Part shown: one piece after another, positions 47,858-55,292 of the stretch
Layout: the number at the start of each line of letters is the position of its first letter
Position numbering within the stretch: position 1 is the first letter of the stretch
Assembly (NCBI GenBank): GCA_947259005.1
Contig: CAMYKP010000012.1
Location: forward strand, 297,018-361,017
Length of the DNA stretch: 64,000 nucleotides
Source: an uncultured Parasphingopyxis sp.
GTDB lineage: Bacteria; Pseudomonadota; Alphaproteobacteria; Sphingomonadales; Sphingomonadaceae
Reading direction: 5' to 3'
Position numbers and translations under genes: made by a program
Notes under the pieces: generated by a model
What the model was told of the DNA's origin: nothing
Databases searched by the model: none
The model's input: only the letters and a program-made list of their open reading frames with translations

Positions 47858-48799
47858 CTAAACCGCGTTCATCGGGAGTTTGAGATAGCGGGTACCGTTA
47901 TCCTCTGGCTCCGGAAAGTGGCCGCCGCGCATATTGACCTGGATCGCCGGGAGAATGAGCGTCGGCATCGACAGGGTGGCGTCGCGTGCGGTCCGCATGG
48001 CGACGAATTCCTCTTCGCTGACTCCCTTGTGGACGTGAATATTGGATTCCGTCTCGTCGCCTACCGTCGTCTCCCAGGCGAAAATATCGCGACCGGGCGC
48101 CTTGTAATCGTGGCAGAGGAAAATGCGGGTTTCGGTCGGCAGCGACAAGAGCCGCCGGATAGACCGATACAGCATATGGGCATCGCCGCCGGGGAAATCG
48201 GCCCGCGCCGTGCCATAATCGGGCATGAACAGCGTATCGCCGATAAAGGCCGCATCGCCGATGACATAGGCGAGATCGGCCGGCGTATGGCCCGGAACAT
48301 GAAGGACAACGCCCTCAAGATTGCCGATCCCGAAGGTGTCTCCATCCTTGAACAACCGGTCGAACTGCGACCCGTCGGTCGCGAAATCGGGACCTGTGTT
48401 GAACAGGGTGCCGAAAGTCTTCTGCACGGTCAGAATTTCGCTGCCGATCGCGATCTGCCCGCCAAGCTCGGCCTGGAGATAGGGCGCGGCCGACAGGTGA
48501 TCGGCATGGGCATGGGTTTCGAGCAGATATTCGACCTCGAGACCCTGATCCCGCACATAGGCGATGATCTCGTCGGCCGAGGCATGCGATGTCCGGCCCG
48601 AGGGCGCGTCGAAATCGAGCACGGAATCGATGATCGCCGCCTTTTTCGTCTCGGGATCATGCACGACATAACTGGCGGTAAAGGTGGGTTCGTCGAAGAA
48701 GCAGTGAACGGAAGGCTTTGCCTTCTCGCCAGCCCTGCTCGCTTCGACCAGGGACCGAGCGTCATCGAGAACCGGATCGGTGATTGTATCTGTGGTCAA
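47858..48799 (-). CDS. Persulfide-dioxygenase-like metallo-beta-lactamase protein
   Basis: 313 residues from TTG 48799, supported by a strong AGGAGG five bases upstream. Metal ligands form HAHADH (96-101), with VPGHTPADLAYV and DTLFMPDYGTARADFPGG downstream. The pattern matches the ETHE1/Blh persulfide dioxygenase group, with DEPTFTASYVVHDPETKKAAIIDSVLDFD in order near the start. It oxidises glutathione persulfide to sulfite. First gene of the operon with YeeE, DUF6691, SQR and SulP; a perfect TTGA-N6-TCAA box is 115 bp upstream. Confidence 0.92.
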   Translation of the reverse strand: MTTDTITDPVLDDARSLVEASRAGEKAKPSVHCFFDEPTFTASYVVHDPETKKAAIIDSVLDFDAPSGRTSHASADEIIAYVRDQGLEVEYLLETHAHADHLSAAPYLQAELGGQIAIGSEILTVQKTFGTLFNTGPDFATDGSQFDRLFKDGDTFGIGNLEGVVLHVPGHTPADLAYVIGDAAFIGDTLFMPDYGTARADFPGGDAHMLYRSIRRLLSLPTETRIFLCHDYKAPGRDIFAWETTVGDETESNIHVHKGVSEEEFVAMRTARDATLSMPTLILPAIQVNMRGGHFPEPEDNGTRYLKLPMNAV

Positions 48800-48907: not shown

Positions 48908-48921
48908 TTGACCGACATCAA
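48908..48921. promoter_or_regulatory. FNR/FixK-type site upstream of the sulfur operon
   Basis: TTGACCGACATCAA fits TTGA-N6-TCAA exactly. Its centre is 115 bp from the TTG start of the MBL gene on the minus strand, so a class II promoter would give a 5' leader of about 75 nt. It is one of five such sites in this block. Confidence 0.7.
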
Positions 48922-49090: not shown

Positions 49091-49104
49091 TTGATCAAGG
49101 TCAA
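49091..49104. promoter_or_regulatory. FNR/FixK-type site upstream of the fixL-like gene
   Basis: TTGATCAAGGTCAA fits TTGA-N6-TCAA exactly. Its centre is 100 bp before the fixL-like ATG, consistent with a class II promoter and a leader of about 60 nt. It suggests feedback from the FixK-type regulator on the sensor genes. Confidence 0.7.
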
Positions 49105-49197
49105 GCAATTCACCATCCAAAAGGCCGAACGATAGGATACAGATAACTTGCTTGGGCTCCGTCTGACGTGCGATGTGATAACTATGGAGAGTCAGCA

Positions 49198-50337
49198 ATG
49201 AAGGCGCCAAAGGAACCGGACACGGAGCTTGGACGGCGAGACTTGCTGGTTGAGGCCCTGTTATCCCTTTCCCCCGACATGATCGTCACGATCGACCAGC
49301 ATAGCGTCATCCAGTCGATCGGTGCGGTTGCCGCCACGATGCTCGGCTATGAAGGCAACGAACTGGTCGGTCAGAATGTGAAAGTGATGATCCCGCCGCC
49401 CTATCGCGATGAGCATGAAGCCAATGTCAGGCGCTATATCGATACCCACGAAGCCCATATCATAGGGGTCGGTCGGAAACTCGAAGCGCAGCGCAAGGAT
49501 GGCACGCTTTTCCCGATCTATTTGAGAGTGGCCGAAGTCTGGGACGGTGGCAATCCACTGTTCGTCGGCCTGATTCATGACCTCACCAAGGAAGAACAGG
49601 CGAAGGATCGCGAACAGGAAATGCGGACGGCGATGCAGCACATGTCCCGCGTCGCCTCGATGGGAGAAATGGCAACCGGGCTGGCGCATGAGATCAACCA
49701 GCCTCTAACGGCGATCAACCAGTATCTGAGCGCCGCATCGCACCAGTTGCGCAACGGCAAACCCGATATCGCTTCGGCTCAGGAATTTATCGAAAAGGCC
49801 AGCCGGCAGACTGAGCGCACCAGCGATATCATCCGCTCACTGCGCAAGTTCGTCCGCTTTACCGGGGGCGAAAAAACGCGCTGCGCTCTCGAGCCTCTAA
49901 TCCGCGAGACCATCGATCTCTCACTGCTGGAAAGCGAACGGAAAAGGATTACGGTGGATGTCGATATTCCCGATACCCTTCCCGACGTCCTTGTCGAGCC
50001 GGTGCAGATTCAGCAAGTGCTGCACAACCTGTTGCGCAATGCACTCGAAGCGACGGCCAAGGTCGTCAGGCCGCACATTCGAATTTTCGCCAAACCCCAC
50101 CGCGAAACCCATGTCCAGATTTGCCTCGAAGACAATGGACCGGGTATTGATTCCGCACTGAAAGATGAGCTTTTCGAGCGGTTCGTGAGCGGCAAAAGCC
50201 AGGGTCTGGGCATCGGTCTCGCTATCTGCCGTTCCATAGTATCGGCACATGGCGGAACGATATGGGCTGAAGAGGCCGAGCCAACCGGCGCCCGCTTCTG
50301 TTTCGCAATACCAGCTGCGACCAGGAGTCAGCAATGA
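49198..50337 (+). CDS. fixL: FixL-type oxygen-sensing PAS histidine kinase
   Basis: 379 residues from ATG 49198 (GGAGAG upstream). The PAS domain (about 18-135) keeps the FixL haem features by spacing: His73 (proximal ligand, equal to His200 in the Bradyrhizobium protein), Arg79 (equal to Arg206), and HIIGVGR at 87-93, where Arg93 equals Arg220 that binds O2. The kinase has phosphoacceptor His164 in GLAHEINQPL and an HATPase domain. There are no membrane segments, so it is a soluble sensor. Its stop overlaps the FixJ-like start by four bases. It should be active when oxygen is low. Confidence 0.92.
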   Translation: MKAPKEPDTELGRRDLLVEALLSLSPDMIVTIDQHSVIQSIGAVAATMLGYEGNELVGQNVKVMIPPPYRDEHEANVRRYIDTHEAHIIGVGRKLEAQRKDGTLFPIYLRVAEVWDGGNPLFVGLIHDLTKEEQAKDREQEMRTAMQHMSRVASMGEMATGLAHEINQPLTAINQYLSAASHQLRNGKPDIASAQEFIEKASRQTERTSDIIRSLRKFVRFTGGEKTRCALEPLIRETIDLSLLESERKRITVDVDIPDTLPDVLVEPVQIQQVLHNLLRNALEATAKVVRPHIRIFAKPHRETHVQICLEDNGPGIDSALKDELFERFVSGKSQGLGIGLAICRSIVSAHGGTIWAEEAEPTGARFCFAIPAATRSQQ

Positions 50338-50945
50338 CCAAAATTATCCTGGTCGATGACGATCCCGCGATCCTGGATGCGCTGGGAAGCCGGCTGAAAC
50401 TTGCCGGATTCGAAGTCGATACCCATGAGGATGCCGACCACTTTCTGGAAAGCGCGGATCTGCGCGCAGCCGATTGTATCATGCTCGACATCCGTATGCC
50501 GAAACATGACGGCATGGAGGTGCTTGAACAGCTTCAGGAGCGCGATCCCGCATTGCCGGTTGTCATGATGACGGGACATGGCGATATCGACCTCGCCGTT
50601 GCAGCCATCCGAAAGGGCGCAATGGATTTTCTGGAAAAGCCGTTTTCCGATGAACGGTTGATGGACGCCGTGCAAACAGCGGTGAAATTGCGTGAAGCGG
50701 GCCGCAAGGCATCACAGGAAAGGGCCGACCTCGCAGCCAGGGCCGAACAGCTGACTCCGCGTGAAATGGAAGTGTTCAGGGAGCTGGTTACCGGCCAGCC
50801 CAACAAGGTCATCGCTTATAATCTGGGATGCAGCCCCCGGACGGTCGAGATCCACCGGGCACGCGTTATGGCCAAGATGGGTGCACAAAATCTCGCCGAG
50901 ATCGTCCGCATCGCCATCGAGCTTGGCATCCAGCCCGAAGCATAG
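50334..50945 (+). CDS. fixJ: FixJ-type response regulator
   Basis: 203 residues. Receiver domain with acidic Asp8-10, phosphoacceptor Asp52 in MLDIRMP, Thr in VVMMTGHGDI and Lys in DFLEKPF, then a LuxR-type helix-turn-helix LTPREMEVFRELVTGQPNKVIAYNLGCSPRTVEIHRARVM. It is the typical FixJ layout. ATGA overlap with the kinase gene. On phosphorylation by FixL it should activate the FixK-type gene downstream. Confidence 0.94.
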   Translation: MTKIILVDDDPAILDALGSRLKLAGFEVDTHEDADHFLESADLRAADCIMLDIRMPKHDGMEVLEQLQERDPALPVVMMTGHGDIDLAVAAIRKGAMDFLEKPFSDERLMDAVQTAVKLREAGRKASQERADLAARAEQLTPREMEVFRELVTGQPNKVIAYNLGCSPRTVEIHRARVMAKMGAQNLAEIVRIAIELGIQPEA

Positions 50946-51080: not shown

Positions 51081-51725
51081 ATGCGCTTGGGAATTTCAGA
51101 CAATGTCGTTCCGCTCCATGGGGATTTCCCGGACCAGCGTCTGCATATGACGCAGCTTACCCCGGGGCAGACCCTGTTCTGGGAAGGCGATGAGGCAAAC
51201 CAGCTTTTCAGAATCGAAAGCGGCGTGGTCCGGAGCGTCAATTTTTCCGCCGAGGGCGAAAGGCAGGTCACGGGATTTTTCTTTCCCGGCGATGTGATCG
51301 GTCTGCCGCGCGGCCATGACTATCGTTACACCGCCGAGGCCGTAACCGAAGTAAGCTATTCAACCCAGCCCCTGAAAGGGTGGAGCGAGGAAATGCGCTG
51401 CACGCGAGACCTGAACGATGCCCTGTTCGGCACGGTGCAGCCCGAACTGGAAGCCGGTTATATGCGCAGCCTGCTGCTGGGCCGCCAGGGTGCGCTTGTG
51501 AGAATGTGCTCCTTCCTGGCGGATGTCTGCGCGCGGATCGGGAATGGCGAAGAAACGGTGTTGCCGATGCCGCAGACCGACATCGCCGCCTATCTTGCAA
51601 TGACGCCCGAAACTGTCTGCCGGACCTTCCGGAAATTGAAGGATATCGGTACGGTGCGCATTGAAAAGCATGACTGTATCCGCATTCTCGAACCGGGAAG
51701 AATTGCGCAGCTCGCAAGCCATTGA
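51081..51725 (+). CDS. fixK: FixK-type Crp/Fnr transcriptional regulator
   Basis: 214 residues. The cyclic-nucleotide-like sensor domain (about 20-130) lacks the N-terminal cysteine cluster needed for an Fe-S FNR, so it is a FixK-type protein whose level is set by FixJ. The helix-turn-helix reads MPQTDIAAYLAMTPETVCRTFRKLKDIG; the E-xx-C-R pattern keeps Glu and Arg for TTGA contact, with Cys at the Ser position, possibly redox-sensitive as in some FixK proteins. GGAGGAAG precedes the ATG. It should bind the TTG(A/C)-N6-(T/G)CAA boxes seen in this region. Confidence 0.9.
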   Translation: MRLGISDNVVPLHGDFPDQRLHMTQLTPGQTLFWEGDEANQLFRIESGVVRSVNFSAEGERQVTGFFFPGDVIGLPRGHDYRYTAEAVTEVSYSTQPLKGWSEEMRCTRDLNDALFGTVQPELEAGYMRSLLLGRQGALVRMCSFLADVCARIGNGEETVLPMPQTDIAAYLAMTPETVCRTFRKLKDIGTVRIEKHDCIRILEPGRIAQLASH

Positions 51726-53694: not shown

Positions 53695-54126
53695 ATGAGC
53701 GCACTTGGTTTGAGGATTTTCGACAAGGCCATTCAGGACGCCAATGTCTGGCTCGACGAGCTGATGGCGCATCTCGACTGGGAGGACAAACAGCGCGCCT
53801 ATCGCCTGCTCCGATCGACCCTGCATGTGCTGCGGGATCGCATACAGCTTAATGAAACCGTGCAATTCGCCGCGCAATTGCCGACCTTCATCCGGGGCGT
53901 CTATTTTGAGGGCTGGCAACCGTCCGAGCCCTGCACGGACCAGAAACATGCCGCTGAATTCGTCGCCTCCGTCGAAGCGGCTTTCGACACCGATCCCAAT
54001 GCGGACCCCGAAGCGACTGTACGGGCCGCCTTCGCAGTAATTGCAGGACATGTATCGGCTGGTGAAATCGACGACATCAAATCGAGCCTGCCGCCCGGTA
54101 TCAGGGAGCTCTGGCCAGCCGACTAG
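53695..54126 (+). CDS. DUF2267 domain protein
   Basis: 143 residues matching DUF2267: FDKAIQDANVWLDELMAHLDWEDKQRAYRLLRSTLHVLRDRI, then QLPTFIRGVYFEGW and PEATVRAAFAVIAGHVSAGEIDDIKSSLPPGIRELW. DUF2267 proteins are helical, cytosolic and of unknown role, and are often found in FixK/anaerobic or stress regulons of alphaproteobacteria. It lies 26 bp behind the lipoprotein gene with AGGACAGG upstream, so co-transcription is likely. Confidence 0.92.
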   Translation: MSALGLRIFDKAIQDANVWLDELMAHLDWEDKQRAYRLLRSTLHVLRDRIQLNETVQFAAQLPTFIRGVYFEGWQPSEPCTDQKHAAEFVASVEAAFDTDPNADPEATVRAAFAVIAGHVSAGEIDDIKSSLPPGIRELWPAD

Positions 54127-54163: not shown

Positions 54164-54177
54164 TTGATCGACATCAA
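54164..54177. promoter_or_regulatory. Perfect FNR box in a convergent intergenic region
   Basis: TTGATCGACATCAA is an exact match to TTGAT-N4-ATCAA. It lies in the 236-bp space between the convergent DUF2267 and L,D-transpeptidase genes, where no protein gene start needs it. A CATTAT -10-like element at 54199-54204 puts a start point near 54211, 40-41 bp from the box centre, the class II FNR spacing. Confidence 0.7.
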
Positions 54178-54210
54178 CCGGGCTTCGTTTCCACGGTTCA
54201 TTATCAAATC

Positions 54211-54360
54211 TGCCTGATGATGAGTCGAAGGCTATCCTGCTCTTCCCGTGCGCAAGCGCAGCTAAGCGGTGCCATTCGACGATGACCCAACAGGTGAGGG
54301 CCTGCGGTGATCAGTTCGAATCCCTTGCGGACTACGATCAGACCCCACCGCAGGCCTTTC
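54211..54360 (+). ncRNA. Candidate FNR/FixK-activated small RNA
   Basis: A transcript from the predicted start near 54211 would run about 150 nt to a hairpin formed by GGCCTGCGGTG (54299-54309) and CACCGCAGGCC (54346-54356), an 11-bp perfect stem with a 36-nt loop, then TTTCCTC. The only open frame is 22 codons (54217-54285) and looks random. The end of the RNA reaches the 3' end of the convergent L,D-transpeptidase gene. This is inferred from DNA only; the T-tract is short, so the exact 3' end is uncertain. Confidence 0.4.
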
Positions 54361-54362
54361 CT

Positions 54363-55292
54363 CTATCCAAGATAGCATTGCGGATCGGTGCCTTCGAAGT
54401 CCGCGCCGGCCGTGTTGGAGGCCACCGAACGCCTGTCACGGTTATAGACATCGGGGAAATATCGGATGGATCCGTCGCTATCGGGCTCTGCGGTAAAATA
54501 GCCGATATAGACAGGGATCGGCTCGGGAAGATCGATCCGCATCGTTTGCCCGGAAGCCACGACTTCATCGGTCCGCGCCCTGTTCCAGCCCGGACGCGCG
54601 GCCAGCACTTCGCTCGCAAAGTCCAGCGCATCGCCAACCCTCACACAGCCATGGCTCAAGGTTCTGACATCGCGGTCGAACAGCGAACGGTTCGGTGTAT
54701 CGTGCAGGAACACGCTGTGAGAGTTGGGCATTACGAGCTTCATCAACCCAAGCGCATTGTTGGGCCCCGGGCGTTGGCGATAGCGTCCATTCTGATAGAC
54801 ATAGCCTCTCTGCCGTGCCGCCGCCGGACGGTTGCGCACCATCGAGGCGATGCCTTCACGCGCGATGCTTGCGGGAACCTCCCACCAGGGATTGAAGATC
54901 ACGCCGGACACTTCGGCCTGGAAAATCGGCGTCGGCGTGCGCGTGGTGCCGACAATCACCCGCCAACGGCCCATCTCGCGCCGGCCTTCCCATAACGTGA
55001 CTTCGGCCGCCGCCGCATTGACCATCAGATAGCGCGGGCCGAGCTCTGCCGGCATCCTGCCCCAGCGATCCAGGTTGGACGCAAGCGTCGCCCGGCGGGC
55101 CGGATCGGTTTCCGTTGCATAAGCTTCCCGCAGCGCATCATAATAGGGATGGCCGACAAGCGCCGAGGTTTCGGCAGCCTCTTCGGTTTCCAGCGTTTCG
55201 GGAGCCACTTCCCCGGCAACCTGCGCACTCGCCGCAACAGGCGCGGTCAGGCTGAAAATTGCTCCGGCAATCGCAAAAATAAGCTTCTTCAT
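54363..55292 (-). CDS. L,D-transpeptidase (YkuD domain)
   Basis: 309 residues with a signal peptide (cleavage near ASAQ). The catalytic motif is HDTPNRSLFDRDVRTLSHGCVRV with nucleophile Cys216 and the conserved His214. The region between has VNAAAAEVTLWEGRREMGRWRVIVGTTRTPTPIFQAEVSGVIFNPWWEVP, the usual start of YkuD domains of the YcbB-like type, but the protein is shorter and lacks a large subdomain. It crosslinks or anchors to peptidoglycan in the periplasm. Divergent from a second L,D-transpeptidase-like gene. Confidence 0.93.
   Translation of the reverse strand: MKKLIFAIAGAIFSLTAPVAASAQVAGEVAPETLETEEAAETSALVGHPYYDALREAYATETDPARRATLASNLDRWGRMPAELGPRYLMVNAAAAEVTLWEGRREMGRWRVIVGTTRTPTPIFQAEVSGVIFNPWWEVPASIAREGIASMVRNRPAAARQRGYVYQNGRYRQRPGPNNALGLMKLVMPNSHSVFLHDTPNRSLFDRDVRTLSHGCVRVGDALDFASEVLAARPGWNRARTDEVVASGQTMRIDLPEPIPVYIGYFTAEPDSDGSIRYFPDVYNRDRRSVASNTAGADFEGTDPQCYLG

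Follow-up and report, generated by a model that had tools for sequence, protein, structure and literature searches.

The window, which is the whole stretch of 64,000 nucleotides analysed here, comes from a draft genome of 2.45 Mb that is 84% complete. It carries genes for FixL-like, FixJ-like and FixK-like proteins, with a metallo-beta-lactamase-fold gene (47858-48799, minus strand) divergent from fixL (49168, plus strand), and a gap of 236 bases separates the stops of a DUF2267 gene (plus strand, stop at 54126) and of a YkuD L,D-transpeptidase gene (minus strand, stop at 54363). The features of the locus are given below; compared genomes carry G numbers.

48908-48921, no strand assigned: consensus FNR/FixK box TTGACCGACATCAA, between the metallo-beta-lactamase-fold gene and fixL
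49091-49104, no strand assigned: consensus box TTGATCAAGGTCAA, 5' of fixL
49168-50337, plus strand: FixL-like histidine kinase (Pfam PAS, HisKA and HATPase_c; NCBIfam FixL at 317 bits, cut-off of 850 not reached)
50334-50945, plus strand: FixJ-like response regulator (Pfam; NCBIfam FixJ at 233 bits, slightly under the cut-off of 255)
51081-51725, plus strand: FixK-like Crp/Fnr regulator without an N-terminal Cys cluster, candidate activator (Pfam; NCBIfam FixK at 89 bits, under the cut-off of 300)
53695-54126, plus strand: DUF2267 gene, left neighbour (Pfam)
54164-54177, no strand assigned: FNR/FixK box TTGATCGACATCAA, a perfect TTGAT-N4-ATCAA, matched in register by a box in G006, G001, G414, G074 and G212
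54199-54204, plus strand: -10-like element CATTAT, 4/6 against TATAAT, 21 nt past the box
54211-54364, plus strand: predicted small RNA, some 150 nt long, its two ends likewise predicted
54212-54216, plus strand: 5' strand of helix P1, GCCUG, covarying with its partner CAGGU at 54291-54295
54222-54225, plus strand: GAGT, invariant in six aligned sequences
54224-54232, plus strand: 5' strand of helix P2, GUCGAAGGC, partner at 54271-54280, one bulged A
54248-54259, plus strand: apical hairpin GUGC-GCAA-GCGC with a GNRA-type loop, 3 of 4 pairs doubly changed in the model-fitted alignment
54271-54280, plus strand: 3' strand of P2, GCCAUUCGAC
54280-54286, plus strand: CGATGAC, 3' side of the internal loop, with CGATGA invariant in six sequences
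54291-54295, plus strand: 3' strand of P1, CAGGU
54299-54356, plus strand: 11-bp hairpin, predicted terminator with a weak U-tract TTTCCTCT, stem kept in G006, G001 and G414
54363-55292, minus strand: YkuD L,D-transpeptidase gene, right neighbour, convergent (Pfam)

The FNR box, the CATTAT element and the 11-bp hairpin that a preliminary description had reported in the convergent gap were all present at these positions. The arms of the hairpin are GGCCTGCGGTG (54299-54309) and CACCGCAGGCC (54346-54356), followed by TTTCCTCT. With a transcription start at 54211-54212, the centre of the box would lie at -40.5 to -41.5. The proposed placing of CATTAT for a start near 54211, at the class II FNR distance, is supported by relatives, in which the register is kept: at the same 21-nt spacing we found GATAAT in G006, CATAAA in G414, CATAAC in G074, TATCGA in G001 and TACATA in G212. 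The class II distance from box to -10 element is thus seen in the register of all six copies, with weak elements (3/6 against the consensus) in G001 and G212. A simple consensus scan listed neither the plus-strand promoter of the gap nor its terminator, and it listed two promoter-like sites on the minus strand. The predicted terminator of the window is a strong hairpin, but its loop exceeds the length that the rule of the scan allows, and its U-tract is weak.

In 200 simulated sequences, the number of boxes expected per 64 kb was 0.06 for the perfect form and 0.19 for TTGAY-N4-RTCAA. The window has three consensus boxes (at 48908, 49091 and 54164), all inside 5.3 kb around fixLJ-fixK. The pair at 48908-48921 and 49091-49104 suggests FNR/FixK control of fixLJ itself or of the divergent gene. 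Eight perfect FNR sites were counted in the whole draft genome, one of them 5' of ccoN. This ccoN belongs to a cluster elsewhere in the genome (G000 C1:9001-27000, L136) which also encodes an FnrN-type regulator and hemN, the latter with its own consensus box. The N-terminus of the FnrN-type protein, MSSCDTCLVRNQAIC, contains cysteines; against NCBIfam, FnrN stayed below its curated cut-off while ccoN and hemN were above theirs. The FixL, FixJ and FixK genes upstream of the gap had been proposed to supply the regulator. They are relatives of these families by Pfam, although all three remained below the curated NCBIfam cut-offs, and since an FnrN-type protein with N-terminal cysteines is encoded elsewhere in the genome, there are two candidate activators, FixK and the FnrN-type protein.

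We searched 60 related genomes by BLAST with 311 bases of the locus. The best match, in G006, covered 157 query bases (E 2.8e-26); a short match was found in G001 (E 8.4e-6), and G002 gave a 37-base match at the end of the DUF2267 gene (E 1.8e-5). With the limit at E 10, 58 of the 60 genomes returned a match of some kind; the remaining non-own matches, all above E 0.003, were taken as chance, and two that were read (L014, L018) are located elsewhere and lack the RNA. The G006 and G001 regions both adjoin the transpeptidase gene, and the G001 copy comes directly after a fixK-like gene. Their boxes are TTGATCCGAGTCAA in G006 and TTGATCTCGCTCAA, one base off the consensus, in G001. Between the window and G006, identity was 84% (73/87) in the 5' domain of the RNA, above the 72% and 74% nucleotide identity of the flanking genes; it was 66% in the terminator stem-loop and 57% (13/23) in the spacer from box to -10 element.

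A covariance model of the RNA alone, box excluded (R1), was trained on the window, G006 and G001 and run on 397 genomes of the family. At E <=0.01 it matched four genomes, the three training genomes and G414, which belongs to another genus (41 bits, E 2.3e-5). In G414 the RNA lies beside a formate dehydrogenase gene and a formate/nitrite transporter gene, with a perfect box TTGATCGTGATCAA, the CATAAA element 21 nt on and a terminator ending in T7. A model including the box (R3) returned the identical four copies from the same 397 genomes. From box to RNA start, these four long forms align without internal gaps. Within the genus, where up to 77 candidates per genome were scored, the long form was present in 3 of 10 genomes; G008 gave two weak matches (E 0.096 and 0.33), both without an R3 match. 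The larger searches (R1 and R3 in the family, a further model R2 in the order, R3 in the class) scored 7-10 candidates per genome, a depth at which diverged copies can be missed. G002 keeps both flanking genes and fixK, and in its gap of 22 bp no RNA match was found, which points to loss of the RNA there or to its later gain in the other genomes. The comparison with relatives that had been proposed as a check thus came out in favour of a conserved element, the box, the -10 register and covarying helices being kept together in G006, G001 and G414.

The RNA is predicted to fold into two helices, P1 and P2, separated by an internal loop and topped by the apical hairpin. The P1 pairing GCCUG/CAGGU of the window is replaced by GCAAG/CUUGC in G414. 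In a sequence-only alignment of the four long forms, which are few and related, 94.6% of the P1 and P2 cells were paired and 4 pairs were doubly changed; a result as high came from 1 of 500 shuffles, and sliding the partners of P1 and P2 lowered the pairing to 24.5-52.8%. In the model-fitted alignment, which leans to the structure, 19 of 51 pairs were doubly changed (0 of 500 shuffles as high). Each long form also folded well alone, with z scores of -3.37 for the window and -3.64, -3.17 and -4.26 for the other three; in the same order, 0, 2, 1 and 0 of 200 shuffles folded as well. The apical loop is of the GNRA type throughout, with GCAA in three long forms and GAAA in G414. In the internal loop the 5' strand is variable except for GAG, whereas the 3' strand is invariant.

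The surroundings of fixK (+/-20 kb, less at contig ends) were then examined in G014, G207, G117, G179, G212 and G074. R3 gave a match in G074 (32.2 bits, E 2.4e-5) and did not list G212, and R1 matched none of these regions. On reading the contexts of all consensus boxes, we found the layout of the long form again in G074 and G212: a consensus box followed after 21 nt by a -10-like element (CATAAC and TACATA, respectively), GAGT...ACGATGAY, an apical GAGA and a long GC-rich hairpin. These short forms come from two further genera and lie within 0.6 kb of fixK. Their P1 strands differ from those of the long forms yet can pair, as CUGAUUGG/CCAAUCAG and CGAAUGG/CCAUUCG. Folded alone, G074 had part of CGAUGA paired and no GAGA hairpin, and the longest G212 segment lost P1. 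GAGT and CGATGA are invariant across the alignment of the six sequences. Written once G074 and G212 had been seen, a descriptor that combines box, GAGY and CGATGA finds both short forms and has no match in 4.6 Mb of simulated sequence; its match in G207 (L142) was taken as chance. Because the short forms were found via the box and fixK, they give no independent proof of either link; the link of the predicted RNA to the box is independently supported by G006, G001 and G414.

FixK proteins of the type in the window are rare, being detected in 8 of 179 family genomes at E 1e-30. Those of G006, G001 and G414 also reach this value, which brings the carriers known here to 11, and the RNA occurs in 6 of these 11. 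The five FixK genomes without a copy are G002, G014, G117, G179 and G207. Six members of the genus without this FixK (G003, G004, G005, G007, G008 and G009, two of them less than 90% complete) had no strong RNA match. In all six genomes with the RNA, fixK lies at most 16 kb from it; the distance is 2.4 kb in the window, 2.5 kb in G006, about 0.2 kb in G001 and 15.6 kb in G414.

Other searches returned mostly matches that we rejected. A pattern scan of GTDB gave 18 stretches, two of which were known copies (L079 in G001, L088 in G414); the other 16 had no R1 match at E 1 and were taken as chance. The same kind of scan gave no match in viral contigs. R2 gave seven non-own matches in 396 genomes of the order; six R2 matches (L094-L099) were coding or unrelated by eye, and a consensus box was listed in none. 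A match in G238 (L093 1440-1601, minus strand) scored 27.0 bits with R1, 27.9 with R2 and 19.3 with R3. It follows a 402-codon gene and has CGATGAC and a terminator, no FNR box, and in its genome only a distant FixK-like protein (33% identity); it is possibly a diverged relative of the RNA and was left outside the copy count. In 385 genomes of the class, R3 had no strong match outside the family; the matches in G676 and G961 were weak (E 0.009), and that in G676 was rejected on reading. Further weak R1 matches scored 18-24 bits; L104-L108 and L110 had no R3 match at E 1, and L109 was a reverse-strand match inside the G006 copy.

No family of Rfam 15 matched the RNA at the gathering score, and the four matches obtained at E 10, all of them below threshold, were to two microRNA and two snoRNA families, with none to an FnrS family. 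Rfam includes an FnrS family. The preliminary description had named E. coli FnrS as a known RNA of the same kind; the likeness stands for the logic of an FNR-controlled small RNA and fails for homology, and because no Rfam family matches, we use FnrS as an analogue only. FnrS is under direct FNR control and made without oxygen (PMC8139620, PMC4263372). It has known mRNA targets; the RNA of the window differs in being tied to fixK. In Rhodobacter sphaeroides, RSs0019 and RSs2461 are described as small RNA candidates with the Fnr-type regulator FnrL bound at the promoter region (PMC4263372). These resemble the RNA of the window as alphaproteobacterial candidates with an Fnr-type promoter, a likeness at the level of description. 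PcrZ of the same species is an FnrL-dependent low-oxygen small RNA that pairs with photosynthesis mRNAs, whose main direct regulator is PrrA, the role of FnrL being perhaps indirect (PMC8139620). It shares an alphaproteobacterial host with our RNA, and the low-oxygen setting predicted for it; their sequences were compared through Rfam only. In these sources, direct FNR control of a small RNA is documented in E. coli, with FnrS as the example, and has been proposed in Rhodobacter.

The box consensus and the -41.5 centre agree with the class II Fnr promoters of Sphingopyxis granuli TFA, given as TTGAc/t-N4-g/aTCAA centred at -41.5, with targets including ccoN and hemN2 (PMC7713065). The Fnr target table consists of protein genes (PMC7713065). 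The terms 'small RNA', 'sRNA' and 'ncRNA' are absent from the text of PMC7713065, and 'non-coding RNA' occurs twice, both times in SuhB references. Among titles and the beginnings of abstracts in the open-licence literature, no FNR- or FixK-driven small RNA of sphingomonads was recognised.

Across the copies, the box, the -10 register and the predicted RNA are conserved together, its helices covary, and its form is kept beside different neighbours. The main claim of the preliminary description, an undescribed small RNA driven by the FNR box, gains support from this conserved gap, and we consider that the gap very probably holds a small RNA gene. A class II FNR promoter served by FixK or FnrN would be the simplest account of the box. 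Our preferred reading, to which we give a probability of roughly 0.65, is a trans-acting hypoxia small RNA activated by FixK or FnrN, FnrS-like in logic, with a seed that pairs with mRNAs; in the pairing mode we have less confidence than in the gene itself. FixK or FnrN would bind the box at 54164-54177 in low oxygen and bring about transcription of the structured RNA of about 150 nt. RNA polymerase would start at 54211-54212 by class II activation and stop at the hairpin at 54299-54356. The RNA would then act in trans during the shift to low oxygen; we favour this mode since the RNA is retained next to changing neighbours. Contact would be made by the CGAUGA strand of the internal loop, which P1, P2 and the apical hairpin would hold in place. 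That CGAUGA is less variable than the strand facing it in the loop speaks for an outside partner, either mRNA, which we prefer, or protein. As a candidate seed it would most likely pair with target mRNAs, as in FnrS-like small RNAs, which is a guess from the pattern of conservation. Such an RNA would be a separate family with a fold of its own, associated with FixK in a large family of bacteria, and would add an RNA output to FixLJ-FixK signalling. This output can be tested directly, because the predicted promoter, the conserved loop and the helices have been delimited at base resolution.

If the partner is a protein or a ligand, the alternative is that a real FNR-controlled RNA serves as a scaffold, which would bind this partner through its GA/GAUGA internal loop and its apical hairpin. 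The core can indeed be read as a helix-loop-helix with 5'-GA facing GAUGA, with the GNRA-capped hairpin in the long forms, and outside the core the sequence varies while pairing is kept. Yet the contrast between the invariant and the variable strand of the loop suits a seed equally, and the module did not emerge when G074 was folded alone. We hold the scaffold to be rather unlikely; tentatively, it would make the RNA an unnamed structured class of sphingomonad FixLJ-FixK islands, with a GA/GAUGA module common to long and short forms, and low oxygen would be answered by an RNA binding module and not by an ordinary antisense small RNA. Antisense action in cis on the 3' end of the L,D-transpeptidase mRNA, which had earlier been suggested as possible, is much harder to sustain. 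The layout is convergent in the window, G006 and G001, and the predicted 3' end reaches the stop codon of the transpeptidase gene, but the neighbours are different in G414, G074 and G212, 3 of the 6 copies, so the overlap with this gene is not conserved. In addition, G002 keeps the transpeptidase gene with its 22-bp gap and has no RNA match, and the conserved core lies away from the overlap. We consider antisense action on this gene very improbable.

We give equally little credence to a leader or mini-peptide gene starting at the ATG inside CGATGA. This ATG is present in 6 of 6 copies, opening frames of 15, 11, 12 and 12 codons in G001, G414, G074 and G212, and a purine stretch precedes it in both short forms. 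However, the frame in the window has 237 codons and runs antisense through the transpeptidase gene, that of G006 stays open to the end of the segment, and the peptides have little in common. The differences between the window and G006 in frame 0 number 5, 4 and 6 by codon position, third-position bias appears in no frame, and a clear ribosome-binding site was found neither in the window nor in G006. The RNA is conserved while no reading frame is, frames of unlike length following the ATG, and a short protein was judged unlikely for this reason. As for a chance box next to an ordinary terminator hairpin common to two convergent genes, the convergent layout of the gap is consistent with it, as is G002, where the element is missing and both neighbours are present. 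Against this, box, spacing and the covarying 5' domain occur together in G006, G001 and G414, the last without the flanking genes, and the expectation is 0.19 consensus boxes per 64 kb; we find coincidence barely credible and retain the FNR- or FixK-controlled small RNA as the preferred reading.

Further boxes were observed outside the locus. In the genome of the window, two perfect FNR boxes lie 104 bp apart (G000 C12:23300-23417, L004/L005) with, by eye, a NarK-like transporter and a Crp-type regulator on either side, and another perfect box (L006 1501-1514, G000 C12:45472-45485) falls within a 654-codon frame, where it likely has no promoter role. In G014 and G207, which belong to one genus, 11 consensus FNR boxes were found in 72 kb around fixK (L139-L142), several of them shortly 5' of an ATG resembling a gene start.
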